The notes below the pieces were generated by a model. It was not told the origin of the DNA and ran no database searches. It was given only the letters and a program-made list of their open reading frames with translations. DNA of 24,511 nucleotides from a virus, in the IMG/VR virus record IMGVR_UViG_3300035698_004027, positions 1 through 24,511 of that record. One strand, given 5' to 3'. Numbering within the stretch: position 1 is the first letter of the stretch; each line of letters starts with the position of its first letter. A program made the position numbers and the translations under genes. Shown here one piece after another: positions 9,489 to 24,511 of this stretch.

Positions 9489-10378
9489 TAAATACTTATC
9501 CTCGCATACAGGCTAAGGTCCTTCCAATGCCTATCTATAACAGAAGTAATTTTATGACGACTATAACTATAATCACCTATCTTTTCTGACTGTTGATTAC
9601 CATCTTCATTCTTGTAATCCATAATTTCTTTGACAATAGTGTTCACAACAAGAGTCAGCCCTTCAGGTACATTTCCAGCAGTTGTTAATGTTCCACCAGA
9701 ATCATCTGATACGGGAAATTCGTATCCCCCAGTATACCAACAGAATATATCACCATAAAAATAACCATCACATAAACGTTCTATAGTACAATCAGAATCA
9801 TGTGCAATTCTTACATCACCACCCAAATAAGGAGTAGTTAAATGAACTTGCTCATCTACAGCCCAACCAGAATCTAATGGGCGAATCAATTGAGTTAGTG
9901 AATTACCTCTATCAGATAACACTTCAACAGTCCAACCAGCTGTTAAATCCATAGCAGTTACCAAATCAGTTACATTTGTATAAGTAGCATATAAAAATTC
10001 AGTTTCAAGTTCTACCGCATCTGTGCCAATTTCAGTTAAAGTAACTCCTGTAGCATTACTCGTAACAGTAGCTAATGGATTACCAGTATTCTTAATTGTC
10101 AATACATCTACACAATTCCCTGATACCAATTTAATAGCAGTAATAGGATAATTATCAAGTACAATATATTCAGTTCCAGAACCTTCAACCCATTCTTTAT
10201 ATGTAGCAGACTGAAAATTCCTACCACACTTCTTGCCTATTAAATCACAAGTTTCATCTATGATATATCTTAGAACTTCTGTATCACTAATGTTACTGGA
10301 AACATCATCATTAACATCATTTATGAATCTATTATAAAGATATAGATTTGTTAGATTCGATACACCTTTTGCAGCCAT
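9488..10378 (-). CDS. Head-tail connector protein (gp6/gp15-like) with central insertion
   Basis: 296 residues; ATG preceded by AAGGGGG and sharing one base with the stop of the homing endonuclease. The N-terminal helices (TEVLRYIIDETCDLIGKKCGRNF), the strand TEYIVLDNYPITAI and the C-terminal helix (GLTLVVNTIVKEIMDYKN) followed by EKIGDYSYSRHKITS are the pattern of HK97 gp6 / SPP1 gp15 adaptors, which form a ring under the portal. Family members are often 100-200 residues. Here roughly residues 90-170, a beta-rich and Thr-rich stretch, look inserted between strand and helix, possibly an extra domain facing outward. Confidence 0.75.
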   Translation of the reverse strand: MAAKGVSNLTNLYLYNRFINDVNDDVSSNISDTEVLRYIIDETCDLIGKKCGRNFQSATYKEWVEGSGTEYIVLDNYPITAIKLVSGNCVDVLTIKNTGNPLATVTSNATGVTLTEIGTDAVELETEFLYATYTNVTDLVTAMDLTAGWTVEVLSDRGNSLTQLIRPLDSGWAVDEQVHLTTPYLGGDVRIAHDSDCTIERLCDGYFYGDIFCWYTGGYEFPVSDDSGGTLTTAGNVPEGLTLVVNTIVKEIMDYKNEDGNQQSEKIGDYSYSRHKITSVIDRHWKDLSLYARISI

Positions 10379-11109
10379 TACGATACCCCCTTAAGCTTTC
10401 TTTTAGCCCAGTTCTTTTTCATTTGTTCAGACCTCCTTTTGCTTTGCTCTTGAGTATACTTATAGCCTTTAGCATTCTTTTTACCGCACATTGCTATGGA
10501 ATGCTTTTCTTTTTCTTCTTCAGACTGATTACGACCTTTTGTCCATGTGTTCTTACCTTTAGCAGATATACTCATTTTCTTTTTTGTTTCTTCAGTGTGC
10601 TTTCTACCAAGGGGCGATATTTTCTTTTTTGTTTCTTCAGTATGCTTTTTACCCATACGCCCTTTACTAATTTTATCTCTAGTTTCTTGCGATTGCGACT
10701 TCCCCATATTTGATTTACTAATTCTTTTTCTAGTTTCTTTAGAACAAACTCTTCCCATACCTGCTTTGCTAATTTTAATTTTAGTTTCTTCAGAAAGAGT
10801 TTTTCTTGTACCAGACTCCATATTATAGCCGTTATTTATGCTATCATAATATTCCATCCACGTATCTTCTCTATTAAGTAGAACGTCATCTATACACTTT
10901 TCAACAGCTTTAAACTCAAAACTATCAGCACCGTATCTATTCCAAGCCCTTTGCAGGTGTTTATTATGATGCTTGTTCAGCCTAAGTTCAGAGCGATGAC
11001 AGGTGAACCTATTTCTAAAACCAACTGTAGACCCAGTACATCCAATATAAACCTTATTGTTCACAAGGTTAAATATTCCATATATACCAGATTCTGTGCC
11101 TTTAGCCAT
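10378..11109 (-). CDS. GIY-YIG homing endonuclease with NUMOD3-like repeats
   Basis: 243 residues, RBS GGAGGT just before ATG. The catalytic module is at 1-100: GIY at 8-10, YIG at 21-23, Arg32/Arg34 (FRNRF), the metal-binding Glu81 in NREDTWMEYY, and Asn96 in GYN. Residues 105-185 contain about five copies of a 17-residue DNA-binding motif of the NUMOD3 type (S/T-x-E-T-K-x-K-I-S ... G-K), visible in the DNA as repeats of about 51 bases. Such enzymes cut an allele lacking the gene and are copied in by repair. It is free-standing, lying between the capsid paralogue and the connector gene, and overlaps the connector start. Active residues all look intact. Confidence 0.93.
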   Translation of the reverse strand: MAKGTESGIYGIFNLVNNKVYIGCTGSTVGFRNRFTCHRSELRLNKHHNKHLQRAWNRYGADSFEFKAVEKCIDDVLLNREDTWMEYYDSINNGYNMESGTRKTLSEETKIKISKAGMGRVCSKETRKRISKSNMGKSQSQETRDKISKGRMGKKHTEETKKKISPLGRKHTEETKKKMSISAKGKNTWTKGRNQSEEEKEKHSIAMCGKKNAKGYKYTQEQSKRRSEQMKKNWAKRKLKGVS

Positions 11110-11155: not shown

Positions 11156-12298
11156 TTACGTACTTGAGCTGTCAGAACTGTCAGAACTAAATTTCTCAGA
11201 ACTACTTGAACTAGACGAAGAAGAACTAGAAGAAGAAGAACTAGATGAACTAGAAGAACTAGAAGAACTAGACGAAGAACTAAATCCTACAGATGAACTA
11301 CTTGAACTCGATGTAGACTCACTAGATTGTTCCATATCTGCCTTCATAACAAATGCTGATACAACAGAACCATCTTGAGTAGTCATTGTAGAATTCCATC
11401 CACTCTTACCATTAATCCTATGTACCCAACGATAACATAATTCATCCTGGAGAAATTTTAACGACTCATTTACATCAGAAGTAATTTCTTTCTCAGCAAT
11501 ACAATACTGGCTCATATCAGCAAGAAGTATATCATCCACATTCATTACATCAGTTATAACAATAGGTAATCCAAGAATTCTACCTAGTGGAGCACCTTCT
11601 GAAGGATTAGGATTAAATACATTCGGAGCAGTAGTTAAGTCAAGATCAATAATCTCTTCATAACCACCTTTACTCATATACCATTTACCATTAGGATTGC
11701 CATAGTAAGAATGATACATATCTTCTAACTCAGCCAATGTAATAGGGTCAGTGTTTGCAACAAATATAGTTGAAGCATCTGCGGCTATACCATTAATAGT
11801 ATTAGAAGGATAATTGCTACCATATATAATAGCTCTATCAATCTGCCACATCATACTCTCAGTTACAGCACCAGAAATATATGTCTGAAGTGCAACAGCA
11901 TCCATAAACAACTCTTCAGTTATATATACGATTCCTACAAGTTTGTTTAAACTAAGGTCAATCTGTGCAAACTGTCCTTTTGAAGGTGTTTTAGTAACTC
12001 CCTCACCAACCCAATACGTTAATACTCCACCCTTGATACCAGATGTGTTACGTGTAGGTTCAGCAGCAATAGATATCTTTAAACCATTAGCATTTTCGCC
12101 AACCTTAAAAATTTTACATTTAGAATATAGTGAACCTTCTGCGAAATTTGGACTGAAGATTTCTGCTGTTACTGGATGGTCAACTAGGTAACCGCCCTCA
12201 ATGTCAGTTTTTTCATTCTGCCCCGTTGACTTAACAATAGCGCCTGTTCTCAATGACTGCAACTTTTTACCCATTTCTTCTAGTTTCTCGATTTTCAT
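11156..12298 (-). CDS. Second HK97-fold capsid protein (paralogue) with C-terminal polyserine tail
   Basis: 380 residues from ATG at 12298, chosen because AAGGAG is six bases upstream; the ATG two codons earlier abuts that site. The core aligns by eye with the major capsid protein encoded just upstream: KSTGQNE, GG-Y/F-LV-x-H, NGLKI, G-E-G-x-TKT, Q-I-D-x-SL-x-K, Y-x-T-x-EL, and the final QDGS/PSGD-x-VS-x-FV. It lacks the roughly 100-residue charged N-terminal region of the other protein, having only 22 residues before KSTGQNE. The last 56 residues are mostly serine, with SVGFSS near the start and EKFSSDSSDSS at the end. It could be a vertex, minor or decorating capsid subunit. The role is inferred. 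Confidence 0.85.
   Translation of the reverse strand: MKIEKLEEMGKKLQSLRTGAIVKSTGQNEKTDIEGGYLVDHPVTAEIFSPNFAEGSLYSKCKIFKVGENANGLKISIAAEPTRNTSGIKGGVLTYWVGEGVTKTPSKGQFAQIDLSLNKLVGIVYITEELFMDAVALQTYISGAVTESMMWQIDRAIIYGSNYPSNTINGIAADASTIFVANTDPITLAELEDMYHSYYGNPNGKWYMSKGGYEEIIDLDLTTAPNVFNPNPSEGAPLGRILGLPIVITDVMNVDDILLADMSQYCIAEKEITSDVNESLKFLQDELCYRWVHRINGKSGWNSTMTTQDGSVVSAFVMKADMEQSSESTSSSSSSSVGFSSSSSSSSSSSSSSSSSSSSSSSSSSSSEKFSSDSSDSSST
11159..11326 (-). repeat. Polyserine-coding low-complexity tract
   Basis: The final 56 codons of the capsid paralogue are almost all TCT, TCA, AGT or TCG serine codons arranged in imperfect 9-base repeats of GAACTAGAA type. The string GAACTAAATCCTAC also occurs in the polyserine region of the LRR gene near 197, suggesting shared origin. 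Confidence 0.85.
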
Positions 12299-12357
12299 TA
12301 CCATCTCCTTAGTTTTTGCCCTTGTTTAAGGCGTGATTAATAATACACTCCAACTAA

Positions 12358-12490: not shown

Positions 12491-13750
12491 TCAGTCTCTG
12501 GTAACAAATGGTGACACCAGGTCCCCACTTGGAAGAGTAATTGCACTTGCAATTTTTGGTGACCCGCCTAAGCGTCCAACAAAGCGAAATGCGGTCTCAT
12601 CTTCGAGAAAGGCAATGTGTATACTGGTATCTTTTTTGATTCCACCCTTCTTGATAACAAGATACTGGCTAAGGTCAAGGAACATGATGGATGTATCATC
12701 AGCTGCGGCCCCTGCTTGCTCTATAACGTTAATTGGACGACCAAAAAGTGTTCCATAGGCGGAAACTTCATAACTAGGCTGTACCAATTTAACACCACTT
12801 GTAGACTCAAGCTGACCAATTGCTACGAATTGAGCCAAACTCATGTACCACTCAGCACGATTAATAGACTGAGGAGCCATTGAAGCATACATACCCATCA
12901 ACTCAGCAGCAGTTGGATTGTCACCAGCAACTGTGTACTGAATAGTAGCTGCATGATTTTCAATCTCTATCATATCTGTGTTAGTTGTGCCATGAAGAAT
13001 GTCATCATCCGCTACCCATGCAAAAGCCGCCGAAACGTCCTTAGTGAGCATACTTTCAAGTGCAACCTTATCCTGAAGCAATTCATCCGTACAATAGACA
13101 ACCGCCGCCATCTTACCAAGAGAAATGTCAATCTGTGAGAAAGCCTGTGAGAAAGCAGTCTTAGTTGAACCTTCACCTGGACTATAAACACGAACACCAC
13201 CAAACAATGTAGTAGCAGAACGAGTAGACTCATTAACCTGATTGATTTTCAAACCATTAGAGTTAGGTCCTATTTCAACTTGGTCGCACTTAGGAAGTAA
13301 GATTGACTGCTGAGCAGCTAAACGATAGATTTCATTACTAAGGTTATGCTGGACCAAAAAACCGCCATCGGCCCCAGTAGTTTCATTCTGGCCCGTCGAT
13401 TTATACAATCTTTCATCAACATTTCCACGAGAAGCCTTTACAACAGCACCAAGGAACTCGCCAGAATCTTTCCAAAGAGGAGCATCTTCAACAACTACAA
13501 CAGCAGTTTTTGTTTCAACTTCTTTTTCAGTTTCTTTCATAGCTTCAGTAACTGCAGACTTAATTTCTTTAGCCATATCAGCTTTAATATCTTCAGCCTT
13601 AACTTCCTTTACAACACCATCACTAGCTTCTGCTCTTTCAGCCTTGATAAGCTCTTCAGCAACATCATCAGACACTTCAAGAATAGAACCAGAATCATAG
13701 ACGTTATCATCAACATCCATATATTTCTTAATCAACTTTATAAACTTCAT
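12491..13750 (-). CDS. Major capsid protein, HK97 fold, with N-terminal scaffolding-like region
   Basis: 419 residues with AAAGGAG before ATG. Residues 1-90 are charged and helical (SDDVAEELIKAERAEA, KADMAKEIKSAVTEAMKETEKEVETK), matching the HK97 delta domain that acts as scaffold and is removed by the prohead protease encoded just upstream. From about 118 the HK97 family pattern begins: KSTGQNETTGADGGFLVQ, NSNGLKINQ, GGVRVYSPGEGSTKT, QIDISLGKMAAVVYCTDELL, a middle domain, and the closing FLEDETAFRFVGRLGG with PSGDLVSPFVTRD. The gene has its own 150-base leader and a strong terminator, as expected for the most abundant virion protein. Confidence 0.93.
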   Translation of the reverse strand: MKFIKLIKKYMDVDDNVYDSGSILEVSDDVAEELIKAERAEASDGVVKEVKAEDIKADMAKEIKSAVTEAMKETEKEVETKTAVVVVEDAPLWKDSGEFLGAVVKASRGNVDERLYKSTGQNETTGADGGFLVQHNLSNEIYRLAAQQSILLPKCDQVEIGPNSNGLKINQVNESTRSATTLFGGVRVYSPGEGSTKTAFSQAFSQIDISLGKMAAVVYCTDELLQDKVALESMLTKDVSAAFAWVADDDILHGTTNTDMIEIENHAATIQYTVAGDNPTAAELMGMYASMAPQSINRAEWYMSLAQFVAIGQLESTSGVKLVQPSYEVSAYGTLFGRPINVIEQAGAAADDTSIMFLDLSQYLVIKKGGIKKDTSIHIAFLEDETAFRFVGRLGGSPKIASAITLPSGDLVSPFVTRD

Positions 13751-19692: not shown

Positions 19693-20391
19693 TTACTTAT
19701 GACCTGTTGCTTTTAATATTCTAGCTTCCATCTCTGCACTCTGTTTGGTATGACGCTCTTTTTCTTTTCTTCTTCGCTCAATAGTTGCTAGTCTGCTTTT
19801 TTCTCTCTGATCTTGTTCTCTGGCAAATGTGTAAAATGAGCGATGTTCTTCCTTACGTTGTTGATTTTTAGTATATTTATAATCTTTACTAATACATTCT
19901 TTATTTGCATAGAATTTAGCATTTTCCATATTAGTTTGTTTAATAACGTATGCTACAGCCGCTTTTATTTGTTTCTTTGTTTTCTTTTCCTTTTGGCCTC
20001 TGTATATAATATTGCGTACTTTGCAGTCAACCCAATTTTTACTTTGTATAACTACCCATTTATCATAGTATTTATTAATATATTCAGCATCTCTGGCTTT
20101 TCTTGAGGCTATATGTTTTGCTTTTTGTGTGTTTATTTGTTTTTCTGTTCTATAGTGTTTATCGAGATATTCATCAGCTGTATTTGTTTTTGCCCTATTT
20201 AGAAATTCGTATGTATATTGGTTTTTCCAGAATGGTATTTTTTCTTTTATTTGTTCATTAGATAGTCCATTTATATTAGCTATTCGTATTTCTCTATCTA
20301 TAGCACTATTTACATATGTTTCTTTATTAATGGGCTGAGCATTGGCTATTGTTGTTATTGCGATTAATGTTAGTATTGCGATCAGTTTCAT
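19693..20391 (-). CDS. Secreted basic helical protein of unknown function
   Basis: 232 residues, ATG preceded by AAGGA. A clear Sec signal peptide covers residues 1-18 (MKLIAILTLIAITTIANA, cleavage probably before Gln19). The mature protein is very rich in Lys, Arg, Glu and Tyr with long helices; examples are NQQRKEEHRSFYTFAREQDQ and IERRRKEKERHTKQ. Two Cys (WVDCKVRN and NKECISKD) could form a disulfide. It has its own promoter and long flanking gaps, unlike its operon neighbours, so it looks like an independently expressed insert. Lysogenic conversion, superinfection exclusion or an effect on the cell envelope are possible. I do not recognise a family. Confidence 0.7.
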   Translation of the reverse strand: MKLIAILTLIAITTIANAQPINKETYVNSAIDREIRIANINGLSNEQIKEKIPFWKNQYTYEFLNRAKTNTADEYLDKHYRTEKQINTQKAKHIASRKARDAEYINKYYDKWVVIQSKNWVDCKVRNIIYRGQKEKKTKKQIKAAVAYVIKQTNMENAKFYANKECISKDYKYTKNQQRKEEHRSFYTFAREQDQREKSRLATIERRRKEKERHTKQSAEMEARILKATGHK

Positions 20392-20429: not shown

Positions 20430-20457
20430 ACTATATAGAAATTCTGTTAAAAGTCAA
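20430..20457 (-). promoter_or_regulatory. Sigma70-type promoter for the secreted-protein gene
   Basis: On the minus strand TTGACT (20457-20452), a 16-base spacer and TATAGT (20435-20430) each match consensus at five of six positions. It lies about 40 bases before the ATG. A second TTGACT at 20497-20492 has a poorer -10. Confidence 0.7.
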
Positions 20458-20559: not shown

Positions 20560-21264
20560 TCATTTGAGTATAACTAATCCTATACCTGGTGAACTAGCAT
20601 CTACTGACAAATCTATTGTTTTGTGTGTATTTGATAATTCATTAAACAATTTACTAGAGCCGTATCTTCCATCTTTTATATCGTGAAAAGCTATATATCT
20701 TGAATCTTTGAATTGATTAAACGTATTAAGCATAGAATCATATCTTTGGTTAGTATCTATAAAAACTAAATCAAAGGGTTCTGTTTGATAATCATCTGAG
20801 TGCATATGTAGGAATTCACATGTAGGATTAAGTTTATGATATATATTGAATGTTTTGCATGCTTGGATATCTAGTTCTAGTTCTCTCAGTATTCTTCTTT
20901 TGGTATTAGTAATAGTATTTATGTTTGTTTCATTGAGGTCTAAGCGTGTATCTAGTCCTATTGATTTGATATAATTGGGATTTATTGACCTAAAGTAAGC
21001 GTCTAGTATAATAAAGCTACCGCCAAGATATGTACCTACTTCGCAATATTTGGTTACATTTAGTTTATTCATGTACTTCATTAAGTTTAATAATTCATGT
21101 GGGTGTTGGCTTACAGACACATCGGAATATCTTTTATCTCTATATCCTTTAGCTCCAAAACGTACTGCACTAGGTAATGTATTTTCTAATTCATCAATAT
21201 CATTTAATTCAAAGAATTCATTTAGTTTATTAGCTGGTGTTCTTGGTATTCTTGGTGTTTTCAT
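20560..21264 (-). CDS. Class I SAM-dependent methyltransferase (Methyltransf_24-like)
   Basis: 234 residues, AAAGGAG before ATG, overlapping the upstream gene by four bases (ATGA). SAM-binding motif I is EVGTYLGGS (75-83), followed by the acidic residue after strand 2 in IGLDTR (102-107), the FDLVFIDTNQRYD strand (164-176) and IAFHDI (191-196). FIDxxxxYD and FHD-I are characteristic of Methyltransf_24 and related O-methyltransferases acting on sugars or small molecules. It ends the accessory cassette. The substrate cannot be read from the sequence. Modification of a glycan on host or virion is a guess. Confidence 0.8.
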   Translation of the reverse strand: MKTPRIPRTPANKLNEFFELNDIDELENTLPSAVRFGAKGYRDKRYSDVSVSQHPHELLNLMKYMNKLNVTKYCEVGTYLGGSFIILDAYFRSINPNYIKSIGLDTRLDLNETNINTITNTKRRILRELELDIQACKTFNIYHKLNPTCEFLHMHSDDYQTEPFDLVFIDTNQRYDSMLNTFNQFKDSRYIAFHDIKDGRYGSSKLFNELSNTHKTIDLSVDASSPGIGLVILK

Positions 21265-21749
21265 TTAGTAATCTCCTTTATATCGTATCCTTTAACTTCG
21301 CAATATTTCTTTATTTTTTTAAAGAGGTATTTGATCTTCTTTATATCGCTATTTGTCTGGTAAAATGTACTATTGTTCTTATTTGCGTTGATGTTTATTT
21401 TTTTAATAGCTTTAGTCATTTGTTTTTCTATGGGTAATACTGGCATTCTTCTACTGGAGTTATGTCGTTCTTTATTTTTACTTAGCCATTTTTTTTGGTT
21501 TGCTCTATTTTTTTCACCGTTATCTCTGGCATAGTATCGTCTGGAGGAATCTCTATTTTTTTCTTTACGTTGTGTTAGTTCTTCTGGGGTTAATGACAAT
21601 AGTTTTTTCTTTTTTGCAATTGTGGCGATGTGGTAGTTACAGGGTTTACAATATGAGTATGGTTTTCCTTTATATTTACCTGATTGTTTTATATAGAATT
21701 CAGTAATCAGTTTTTCTTCATGGCAATGTGGGCATATTTTATATCTCAT
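21261..21749 (-). CDS. Zinc-finger protein resembling the N-terminal part of HNH-type phage nucleases
   Basis: 162 residues with AAGGAG before ATG; it overlaps the preceding gene by 11 bases. Two CxxC pairs (CPHC at 6-9 and CKPC at about 34-37) around KLITEFYIKQSGKYKGKPYSY form the zinc ribbon often found at the start of phage HNH endonucleases. The next region is basic with RRYYARDNGEKNRANQKKWL-type repeats. The rest lacks an HNH catalytic core, so it is either a DNA-binding remnant or an independent zinc protein. The basic repeat is like the portal N-terminal extension. Confidence 0.6.
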   Translation of the reverse strand: MRYKICPHCHEEKLITEFYIKQSGKYKGKPYSYCKPCNYHIATIAKKKKLLSLTPEELTQRKEKNRDSSRRYYARDNGEKNRANQKKWLSKNKERHNSSRRMPVLPIEKQMTKAIKKININANKNNSTFYQTNSDIKKIKYLFKKIKKYCEVKGYDIKEITK

Positions 21750-22149
21750 TTAGCTCCTTATTATGTGGTTCTATTTTAACTATTTTTGGGGAGTTATAGA
21801 GATAGCATTCATTGATGTATATATCGGTATATTTTTCTAAGAACTTTTGTTTTTCCATATTCTCCATATCTTTTTTTTGTTCTTCTTTATTATAAGGTGT
21901 TTTCTTTTTATATATACCAACGTTAGACCACGTTATATCTTCGCAAACAAATTGATAATCTGTTTCTGTACTCCCGAGTGTTAATGTTCTACCATCTACA
22001 ATTGAACATCCTAGAGATAATATAGTTACAGTTGTTTTTAACATTGCATTTGTTTCATTTGATATTTCTATTTTCCAACTAACTATATTATCGTGTATTA
22101 TTTCTGTTGTTTTTAATGTTCCTCCGAATCCTGTTATTAAGTTATTCAT
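21739..22149 (-). CDS. Hypothetical protein of the methyltransferase cassette
   Basis: 136 residues from ATG at 22149, chosen because AGGGG lies five bases upstream. An ATG five codons earlier has no site. It overlaps the membrane-protein gene by eight bases. The first 90 residues look like alternating beta strands (VSWKIEISNETNAMLKTTVTI, LGSTETDYQFVCEDITW), perhaps a beta-sandwich. A charged helix (KKTPYNKEEQKKDMENMEKQ) follows. I recognise no family. The tight overlaps tie it to the cassette. Confidence 0.55.
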   Translation of the reverse strand: MNNLITGFGGTLKTTEIIHDNIVSWKIEISNETNAMLKTTVTILSLGCSIVDGRTLTLGSTETDYQFVCEDITWSNVGIYKKKTPYNKEEQKKDMENMEKQKFLEKYTDIYINECYLYNSPKIVKIEPHNKELNEI

Positions 22150-22468
22150 TTTTCCCCTTTTCATATAATTTTACGAAATCTTCTAGTGATAGTTCTGCTA
22201 TTGCTGAGTAATCCATACAGTATATTTCATGGATATATTTAAACTTGGTTTTCAAATCACTATCACTGTTACATCTAGCCATATGAATTTTATCATTTAT
22301 TGCATTTATTCCACTTATAATAGCATTTATTGCACATATAATAGTTGCTGAGAAAAAGCATGCTATACAATAAAATTTACATACTTCTAAATATGGTGAT
22401 AAAAATAAGCCAATTCCAACAACAAATAGAATTATTGCTATTGTTTTTAATATACGTTTAATTTTCAC
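22142..22468 (-). CDS. Small inner-membrane protein, GTG start
   Basis: 108 residues beginning with GTG, supported by AAAGGAG four bases upstream. Two hydrophobic segments (about 6-27, LKTIAIILFVVGIGLFLSPYL, and 32-57, FYCIACFFSATIICAINAII) predict a two-pass membrane protein with a charged cytoplasmic tail of about 45 residues. It overlaps the upstream methyltransferase gene by 11 bases. It may anchor other cassette proteins or act alone on the membrane. No family is recognised. Confidence 0.65.
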   Translation of the reverse strand: MKIKRILKTIAIILFVVGIGLFLSPYLEVCKFYCIACFFSATIICAINAIISGINAINDKIHMARCNSDSDLKTKFKYIHEIYCMDYSAIAELSLEDFVKLYEKGKNE

Positions 22469-23018
22469 TATTCTCCTTTATATATATACCGAAACATCTT
22501 CTATTTAATATTTCGTGTGTTAATTTCCATCCGTATTTATCTACAGTGTCATTCCAGCCTTTATATCGTTTAGCATCTCTAGTTGTGTAATTGTTTCTAT
22601 ATCTTTTGATTTTATGGTAGTCGTGAACAATTAATGTGGTGTTTTCATTGAACAGGTTGTTTTCCATACAGTATATTAAAGGCATTTCTCTTTGATGACC
22701 TTCTGCTTCTGGTTCACATCCTACATGAGAGTCTACTAGGATATATTGATAATGCATTACAGGTACATCTTTCATTTTGTTTACAATATTCACATTTGGT
22801 ACATGTTCTTTAATCATATCTATAGCTGGTTGGTATTCTTCTACTGTTGTGTAATCTTTAAAGCCTAGTTGATTTAGATACCAAGTAGATATTCCGCCAC
22901 CTATCTCTAGTATTGATTCTTGGTTAGTTGGTTGTTCAGTTATATAGTCAGCAAGGAGATTCATTGTTTTCTCTCTTGGACTCCATCTAGAACTTCTCTG
23001 TGGGCAAGTTATTAACAT
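22458..23018 (-). CDS. SAM-dependent methyltransferase-like protein
   Basis: 186 residues, AAGGA before ATG, overlapping the upstream gene by seven bases. Motif I is LEIGGGIST (37-45), the acidic end of strand 2 is TVEEY (58-62), strand 4 is YILVDSHVG (92-100), and strand 5 is LIVHDYHK (129-136). This is a compact class I fold without extra domains. The N-terminus (CPQRSSRWSPREKTMNLLADYI) may form the cap. The substrate is unknown. It is one of four such genes in a row. Confidence 0.7.
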   Translation of the reverse strand: MLITCPQRSSRWSPREKTMNLLADYITEQPTNQESILEIGGGISTWYLNQLGFKDYTTVEEYQPAIDMIKEHVPNVNIVNKMKDVPVMHYQYILVDSHVGCEPEAEGHQREMPLIYCMENNLFNENTTLIVHDYHKIKRYRNNYTTRDAKRYKGWNDTVDKYGWKLTHEILNRRCFGIYIKENSEN

Positions 23019-23569
23019 TGTTTATTCCTTAAGAAGAATAGAATTGTATTTCTTTTATCGTGCATCTTTATATATTCCATATCATAATCTTTAAACATTA
23101 CTATATACTCTTTACTTGTGGCACTGAAGCAGTCTATTTCGTTAAATACTTCGTGATACTTACTATGTTCAATACAACATACACCTGTTTTACTAAGGCA
23201 TTTCATCCAATTGTCGAGGCATACTTTAGGGTTATTTGAATGATCCCAACTATTTGAATATATGAAGTCAACACTATTTAACCATTCACCTTTTATTTCG
23301 TTAAAATCCCACTGTATAACGTTCTTATTTAATATCTGAGATAATTCAGTTCCTATTATTTTAGCATCTAAGTGTAAGGCAAACTGAGTAACCTCGTATC
23401 CACTTCTAACTCCATGACATATACCAAATTCAATTTTACTTTTATCGACATAATCACATATTGTTTCTATTACGTCATCTGATATCCATATTTTATCTTT
23501 ATGTCTATCTGTTTTACTGAGTTGGTGCTCTATATAATCTTTTTTATCTTTATACTCATATATCTTCAT
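23012..23569 (-). CDS. SAM-dependent methyltransferase-like protein
   Basis: 185 residues, AAGGAG before ATG, overlapping the FkbM-like gene by four bases (ATGA). Motif I is degenerate, FGICHGVRSGYEV (48-60), with IGTELS (72-77), QWDFNEI (86-92) and DFIYSNSWDHSNNP (101-114) in the places of motifs II to IV, then CLSKTGVCCIEHSKYH. The fold pattern is that of class I methyltransferases. The unusual motif I, with His where Gly is common, leaves SAM binding less certain than for its neighbours. Confidence 0.6.
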   Translation of the reverse strand: MKIYEYKDKKDYIEHQLSKTDRHKDKIWISDDVIETICDYVDKSKIEFGICHGVRSGYEVTQFALHLDAKIIGTELSQILNKNVIQWDFNEIKGEWLNSVDFIYSNSWDHSNNPKVCLDNWMKCLSKTGVCCIEHSKYHEVFNEIDCFSATSKEYIVMFKDYDMEYIKMHDKRNTILFFLRNKQC

Positions 23570-24180
23570 ATTAATCTCCTTAGCATTTGTTCTAAATCAA
23601 CATTACCACCTTTTTTAGTTCCGTACTTGGTATTGCTGAAATAATGAAGTTCAATACCAGCATCAGATATCTTCTTAAAAAATGCATCTTTCTTATCAGC
23701 TAGTTCAGGTATCTTATTTACGTCATTAGCTTGATTCCCACAAAAAATGTCAATGTACTTGTATGTGTTTGTGTCTATCAGGTCGTGAAACATATAGTAA
23801 GAGGCCCCCTCTATATTGGATTTACATATATTGATATCGTCAGAATTTATATTTTTGGTAAGCCATTTAGAAAACTTAATTCCATATACTAATTCTGGTT
23901 TTATAACAGCTACGTTTTTTTTGCTACTGAATAATGAATGGCCCAAACTTTTTTTAGCGTGAAACAGTTTCATTTCTCCTTCTTTATCTGCTATGGCTTT
24001 ATTGATAATGAATACATCTGGATTATTTTTAAATCTATCAGCGCATTTCTTATATACATCTAGTGAAGCTTCAAATCCATAAAGTTTGTAATCTAAACCT
24101 AATCTTTCTGCTATATCAATCATCATTTTAGCAGTACCGCCATTGTTGGTCCCAATATCTATAAAATTAAATCTCTTCAT
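23566..24180 (-). CDS. FkbM-like methyltransferase
   Basis: 204 residues with AGGGGAG before ATG. Motif I is IDIGTNNGG (7-15), followed by YGFEAS (34-39), INKAIADKEGEMKLF (59-73) and SNIEGASYYMFHDLI (121-135), the order expected for FkbM family O-methyltransferases. The usual D-x-EGAE motif appears as N-I-EGAS, so the conserved Asp and final Glu are replaced; activity may be altered. FkbM enzymes methylate hydroxyls on sugars, polyketides and other small molecules. It leads the overlapping run of methyltransferase genes. Confidence 0.75.
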   Translation of the reverse strand: MKRFNFIDIGTNNGGTAKMMIDIAERLGLDYKLYGFEASLDVYKKCADRFKNNPDVFIINKAIADKEGEMKLFHAKKSLGHSLFSSKKNVAVIKPELVYGIKFSKWLTKNINSDDINICKSNIEGASYYMFHDLIDTNTYKYIDIFCGNQANDVNKIPELADKKDAFFKKISDAGIELHYFSNTKYGTKKGGNVDLEQMLRRLI

Positions 24181-24212
24181 TATCTCCCCTTTTTGTCGGC
24201 TTAGATTGCCTA

Positions 24213-24365
24213 TTATACATACGGCTCATCTAGCAACTGGTGAATGTTCTCAATCTTTTCACCAACCTTATCGAGACTTGGAGTCATACCAGATTTCTCG
24301 TCGTTAGGCACTTCTTCCCAAGCATCTAATAATTCGCTTACCATTAATTTTAACTTCTCATCCAT
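24213..24365 (-). CDS. Small helical acidic protein
   Basis: 50 residues from ATG at 24365, with AAGGA ten bases upstream. The whole chain looks helical (KLKLMVSELLDAWEEV, LDKVGEKIENIHQLLDE), and the gene overlaps the upstream partial gene by eight bases. It may be a small regulator or partner of a cassette protein. It is shorter than ordinary annotation limits, but context and RBS support it. Confidence 0.5.
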   Translation of the reverse strand: MDEKLKLMVSELLDAWEEVPNDEKSGMTPSLDKVGEKIENIHQLLDEPYV

Positions 24366-24511
24366 TGTCTGAATATCCTTGTAGTGTCGGCTTTAGTGGT
24401 AAATATTCTGGACATTCTTCACACACTATACATCCAAATCCTATTGATGTATTATAGTGTTTACAAATGAACATGCCTTTGACCCTTCGATTACTTGCCC
24501 TCTCGCACGTC
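24358..24511 (-). CDS. Cys-rich zinc-binding-like protein (partial, 5' end off window)
   Basis: The frame is open from the right edge to TGA at 24358, about 51 codons. The visible end reads GMFICKHYNTSIGFGCIVCE and continues ECPEYLP: C-x-H, then C-x-x-C-x-x-C, a probable zinc knuckle. An internal ATG with AAAGG before it could start a 38-residue version. The arrangement is like the small zinc protein at 8649-8882. Confidence 0.45.
   Translation of the reverse strand, partial: TCERASNRRVKGMFICKHYNTSIGFGCIVCEECPEYLPLKPTLQGYSDNG

Follow-up and report, generated by a model that had tools for sequence, protein, structure and literature searches.

For the polysaccharide gene clusters of cyanophages and jumbo phages, a role in changing the cell surface, and so in pre-empting the adsorption of rival phages, has been proposed (PMC7824862). 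In the flagellin glycosylation islands of Enterobacteriaceae, FkbM and other S-adenosylmethionine (SAM) methyltransferases tailor glycans, and some of the glycosyltransferases themselves carry methyltransferase domains (PMC4875605). Here, we describe a cassette of nine minus-strand frames at positions 20560–24511 of the viral record IMGVR_UViG_3300035698_004027, which comprises 24.5 kb in all (24,511 nucleotides; hereafter the window). Phage capsular and O-antigen clusters resemble the cassette in being phage-borne sets of glycan enzymes that include O-methyltransferases, but glycosyltransferases, epimerases and sugar kinases make up their core, whereas only methyltransferases and small proteins are in view on this truncated contig (PMC7824862). 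The combination of FkbM with other SAM methyltransferases is shared with the flagellin islands, which differ in being chromosomal, in lying by flagellin genes and in containing glycosyltransferases (PMC4875605). We consider it likely that this operon forms a phage-borne glycan-tailoring module, with at least three SAM methyltransferases that would O-methylate the sugars of a surface polysaccharide or their precursors. On this reading the cassette is a fresh example of known phage equipment, the surface-polysaccharide islands, and not a new system.

The frames overlap or nearly touch, as the sequence-only reading had described: seven of the eight junctions overlap by 4–11 nt and the remaining one is a 32-nt gap. 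The seven genes running from 24180 down to 20560 are joined by six overlaps of 4, 7, 11, 8, 11 and 4 nt, while the gap and one 8-nt overlap lie upstream of the FkbM gene. Each of these seven complete genes, from FkbM onward, is preceded by a Shine–Dalgarno-like sequence (e.g. AAGGAG, AGGGGAG or AAGGGG), and the longest open reading frame on the plus strand of the region is shorter than 90 amino acids. The cassette forms the transcriptional upstream end of the minus-strand head, packaging and tail module of a tailed phage (large terminase, portal, protease and two copies of the major head protein) and lies before the small terminase gene. Its G+C content is 0.28–0.30, so that it is AT-richer than the structural genes (∼0.35, which is also the value for the window). 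A terminator-like scan found no site, and promoter-like sites were not above those in shuffled sequences. One further gene (19693–20391, minus strand) separates the cassette from the small terminase. It encodes a charged protein of 232 residues with an apparent signal peptide and has its own promoter-like site at 20457; profile library scans gave no family match for this protein.

The most upstream of the methyltransferase genes encodes, as judged by its family profile, an FkbM methyltransferase (TIGR01444/PF05050). Its whole-protein score of 41.7 bits is above the curated NCBIfam cut-off of 37.7, and the family's order of motifs is kept. The EGA element had been read at first as altered; it is in fact intact (S-N-IEGA-S), and the change is an asparagine in place of the preceding aspartate (NIEGA in the window and DIEGA in the family). 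The sequence NIEGAEW is also present in the nearest relatives (L009 and L106), and the replacement would thus be a subfamily trait. FkbM relatives were found in six loci (L009, L106, L167, L168, L176 and L177), and the two nearest are parts of larger proteins located in sugar islands. A single-sequence scan of viral contigs with the FkbM protein gave no relative.

The adjacent gene encodes a member of an unnamed family for which we coin the name KIY, after the start of the protein (MKIYEYKD). The window protein falls below the curated Pfam and NCBIfam cut-offs, and hmmscan gave only sub-threshold matches (Methyltransf_31, E = 0.023; Methyltransf_11, E = 0.062). Six relatives were obtained from a single-sequence scan of viral contigs, at least 142 viral stretches by alignment (80 of which were retained) and at least 79 bacterial loci by a genome scan. 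The AlphaFold model built with a 47-member alignment has a mean predicted local distance difference test score (pLDDT) of 93.6 and a predicted template-modelling score of 0.90, and displays a Rossmann-like seven-stranded fold. All 1000 chains compared by VIA-align have Z ≥ 8; the best rows are SAM methyltransferases (Z = 16–17.6), with the SAM-bound structure 3e23 among the top ones, and Foldseek also places the model among class I SAM methyltransferases. Cys51, His52, Gly53, Arg55 and Glu59 are invariant across the 47 members, as are the sequence YSNSxDH and residues Gly73 and Asp88. Glu75 ends strand 2 and Asp88 follows strand 3, which we take to be the positions at which this fold normally carries SAM-binding residues. 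A structure prediction with no SAM pocket would have spoken against the sequence-only reading; the confident model has the fold, with acidic residues at the usual positions. On the predicted structure, KIY has the class I SAM methyltransferase fold and is a candidate for SAM binding.

The last gene of the cassette resembles the rhamnosyl O-methyltransferase/CmcI and Methyltransf_24 families (PF04989 and PF13578). Its match to PF13578 is weak (E = 4.5e-4, 21.5 bits) and lies under the gathering score of 26.3. A hidden Markov model (HMM) of viral methyltransferases that neighbour KIY genes, and that themselves match PF04989 or PF13578, matched residues 41–225 when nine sequences were searched (E = 7e-12). 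This HMM had broadened and also touches the FkbM protein of the window (E = 4e-6), so we label the protein CmcI/Methyltransf_24-like and not a formal member. The motifs EVGTYLGG, FIDT and FHD align with the viral relatives, with glutamine instead of their histidine after (F)IDT. A single-sequence scan of viral contigs found no relative of this protein; by profile match, the proposal that it works like the CmcI/Methyltransf_24 family holds up.

Four class I methyltransferases had been proposed from the sequence. The FkbM, KIY and CmcI/Methyltransf_24-like proteins stand, and the fourth, of 186 residues, has no confident family match in profile library scans. It is a possible methyltransferase, suggested by the motif ILEIGGGIST and a weak pairwise match to a viral protein (L011:8543–9130, E = 7e-4). 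Homologues were absent from 24 viral records, from the single-sequence scan of viral contigs and from a scan with a two-sequence alignment, and the single-sequence AlphaFold model was of low confidence (pLDDT 42.5) and was not used. Sequence searches of the PDB returned chance matches only. DNA and protein searches of 50,697 GenBank phages with the cassette, the four candidate methyltransferases and a viral KIY relative gave no match.

The likely substrate class emerges from the genes that accompany the relatives. In dereplicated viral loci, with genes called by a simple greedy open-reading-frame method and annotated with Pfam, we compared a sample of 150 genes located no more than two genes away from KIY with a control sample of 150 genes more than 5 kb from KIY in the same loci, the relatives being partly related and not fully independent. 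Glycosyltransferase family 25 accounts for 18 of the 150 neighbours and two of the controls (Fisher p = 1.3e-4), epimerases for nine and two (Fisher p = 0.03) and Methyltransf_24 for eight and at most two, respectively; glycosyltransferase family 2 (GT2; six against two) is not significant alone. Of 49 viral loci, 18 have a gene of the CmcI/Methyltransf_24 type no more than 2.5 kb from KIY (p = 1e-5). The nearness of FkbM to KIY is significant in bacteria (p = 0.0097) and in the pooled loci (p = 0.005).

Individual loci give the same picture. In one viral locus (L003) KIY lies within a run of GT1, GT2 and TOD1-type glycosyltransferase and Methyltransf_24 genes, and in bacteria KIY is fused to GT2 (L099:4324–5811; PF13704, E = 2e-17), to a TOD1-type glycosyltransferase (L164:254–1780, PF04765, E = 1.3e-14; L157:6945–8618 likewise but weaker) and to a PIG-L deacetylase (L106:6699–8582). 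This last fusion comes from a cluster in Pirellulales that includes ABC-2 exporter genes and in which an FkbM protein directly precedes it. In the viral island L009, FkbM and KIY relatives are found together with epimerases, a PIG-L deacetylase and a PfkB kinase. Other viral FkbM genes accompany NeuB, a cytidylyltransferase, a GT29 sialyltransferase and a carbamoyltransferase (L167:5497–13604), or lie by GT2/GT4, a CmcI-type methyltransferase, a TOD1 glycosyltransferase and a polysaccharide pyruvyl transferase (L168 and its near-copies), or overlap a Methyltransf_24 gene and adjoin a Stealth-like gene (L177). FkbM is thus paired with CmcI/Methyltransf_24 in L168 and L177 and with KIY in L009, L016 and the bacterial L106, so that both pairings of the window are found again in several independent lineages. 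The modification of surface sugars, one of the roles raised by the sequence-only reading, gains support here: relatives of three of the four proposed methyltransferases occur in viral clusters with glycosyltransferase or NDP-sugar genes and in bacterial polysaccharide clusters of the export type, some of them fused to glycosyltransferases. As a separate observation, KIY lies by ribosomal-protein genes and a TOD1/DUF616-type glycosyltransferase gene in two alphaproteobacterial loci (L109 and L159).

Several points weigh against this reading, beyond the partial relatedness of the sampled loci. FkbM nearness to KIY is not significant in viral loci alone (p = 0.24). No glycosyltransferase or sugar-synthesis gene was recognized in the scanned parts of the window, in accord with the first inspection; since no more than 331 nt of the contig precede the FkbM gene, an upstream glycosyltransferase block may lie beyond its end. 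Motif I of KIY is a CHGxRxxxE loop after strand 1 (CHGVRSGYE in the window) where GxGxG is canonical, and several of the operon's genes lack an assigned function. Some KIY relatives occur in ordinary bacterial contexts, and others lie in marine T4-like baseplate and head-completion modules with no adjacent glycan genes (L002:5795–6376, L005:4929–5489 and L007:139–699), so some members of the family may have other jobs. Context that is based on homology is by itself no proof of substrate.

The coordinates of the cassette genes are collected in Table 1.

Table 1. Genes of the cassette in the order of transcription, with the basis of each assignment.
Positions	Strand	Product	Basis
24358–24510	-	5'-open reading frame, 50 aa seen, CxxC cysteine pairs, cut by the contig end	No confident family match
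24213–24365	-	Acidic small protein, 50 aa, 8-nt overlap with the preceding frame	No confident family match
23566–24180	-	FkbM-family methyltransferase, 204 aa	NCBIfam TIGR01444, E = 1.4e-10; phrog_8156, E = 1.1e-6
23012–23569	-	KIY protein, predicted class I SAM-methyltransferase fold, 185 aa	Alignment of 47, AlphaFold, Foldseek, VIA-align
22458–23018	-	Candidate fourth class I methyltransferase, unproven, 186 aa	ILEIGGGIST motif
22142–22468	-	Small membrane protein, 108 aa, two hydrophobic stretches, GTG start	Sequence
21739–22149	-	Protein without family match, 136 aa	No confident family match
21261–21749	-	Basic protein, 162 aa, N-terminal zinc ribbon (CxxC...CxxC)	phrog_2340
20560–21264	-	CmcI/Methyltransf_24-like methyltransferase, 234 aa	PF13578, viral HMM, motifs

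The small membrane and zinc proteins of the sequence-only reading are borne out by the two hydrophobic stretches of the 108-residue protein and the two CxxC pairs of the 162-residue protein. The most likely start of the 136-residue protein is the ATG at 22149, behind AAAAGGGG, which is favoured over the listed 22164. The similarity of the zinc-ribbon protein to phage endonuclease families covers their N-terminal part (phrog_2340, profile positions 6–95 of 171; E = 1.6e-5), and a full HNH endonuclease or endonuclease VII is not claimed, as the match ends at position 95. The several orphan proteins, including the 186-residue protein without a detectable homologue, and the AT-rich composition of the region would suit an accessory locus in which unrelated cargo genes were gained separately, serve separate purposes or none at all, and form no pathway. 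Overlaps of the translational-coupling type all along the cassette argue against such an origin, as does the recurrence of the methyltransferase families together in independent viruses (L168 and L177; L009 and L016) and in the bacterial L106, and we regard it as very improbable.

The zinc ribbon would also fit a cassette whose targets are not sugars but nucleic acids, nucleotides or proteins (tRNA, rRNA, hypermodified bases or host proteins). A class I fold alone does not reveal the substrate, and in the VIA-align comparison of KIY the N-terminal protein methyltransferases NTMT1/2, a Trm112-bound enzyme, small-molecule methyltransferases and others are tied, so that substrates are not discriminated; some KIY genes also adjoin genes unrelated to glycans. 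The same common fold, however, shows no function, and the neighbourhoods and fusions of the relatives indicate glycans in many independent loci. DNA-methylase motif IV ([DNS]PP[YFWH]) is absent from all cassette proteins tested, as the sequence-only reading had noted for D/NPPY, and a DNA methylase identity was rejected for these proteins on that ground. The nucleotide changes that the same reading had listed among possible roles found no support in any result. Modification of nucleic acids or proteins by the cassette is improbable.

The virion itself offers another potential acceptor. The two copies of the major head protein (11156–12304 and 12491–13750, both on the minus strand and both phrog_10) differ at the C-terminus: the former has a tail of 56 residues, of which 45 are serines specified by five different codons, and the latter lacks it. 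Directly downstream of the polyserine capsid gene is a GIY-YIG homing endonuclease gene (10378–11109, minus strand; phrog_314, E = 2e-31). It is conceivable that the polyserine tail is an acceptor for sugars, and the enzymes could methylate virion glycans, for example O-linked glycans on this tail or on tail proteins, masking or capping them. The tail is real and confined to one of the two copies, the packaging and head genes follow downstream of the cassette, and some KIY relatives belong to baseplate modules. In three loci (L011, L022 and L077) KIY flanks terminase large-subunit genes, much as the window cassette adjoins the packaging module. On the other side, no glycosyltransferase is in view that could glycosylate serine, the polyserine might serve as a spacer or represent a repeat prone to mutation, and the bacterial relatives occur in clusters resembling those for cell-surface glycan synthesis. 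The virion surface system that the sequence-only reading had put forward for testing, in view of the Ser-rich tails, gained neither support nor contradiction from these results. We consider methylation of virion glycans rather unlikely; should it nevertheless be true, it would bear, speculatively, on the ways in which phages remodel their surface. A bolder version, in which the phage sugar-coats its own capsid on the polyserine tail and caps the sugars with several methyltransferases, KIY with its altered SAM loop being a new class of glycan methyltransferase, is a long shot.

Methylation of surface sugars is the most likely role of the cassette because the relatives in other viruses and in bacteria sit in sugar-coat gene clusters, and by analogy with the bacterial clusters the target is probably a host surface glycan rather than the virion. 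In the mechanism that we propose, the FkbM, KIY and CmcI/Methyltransf_24 types, and perhaps the fourth protein, would be made together from the overlapping genes upstream of the small terminase and would O-methylate sugars of the surface polysaccharide or its precursors. The glycosyltransferases may be those of the host or be encoded by genes further upstream than the contig extends. Methylation would change the coat of infected cells so that, for example, rival phages could not bind or released progeny would not re-adsorb.

Gene neighbours and fusions thus lead from a first-glance list of methyltransferase folds to a likely substrate class. The most useful by-product is the KIY family itself, which was recognized here and is widespread in uncultured viruses and also present in bacteria. 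Because the family is so widespread and recurs with glycosyltransferases, one biochemical assignment of a KIY protein would annotate many phage genes.

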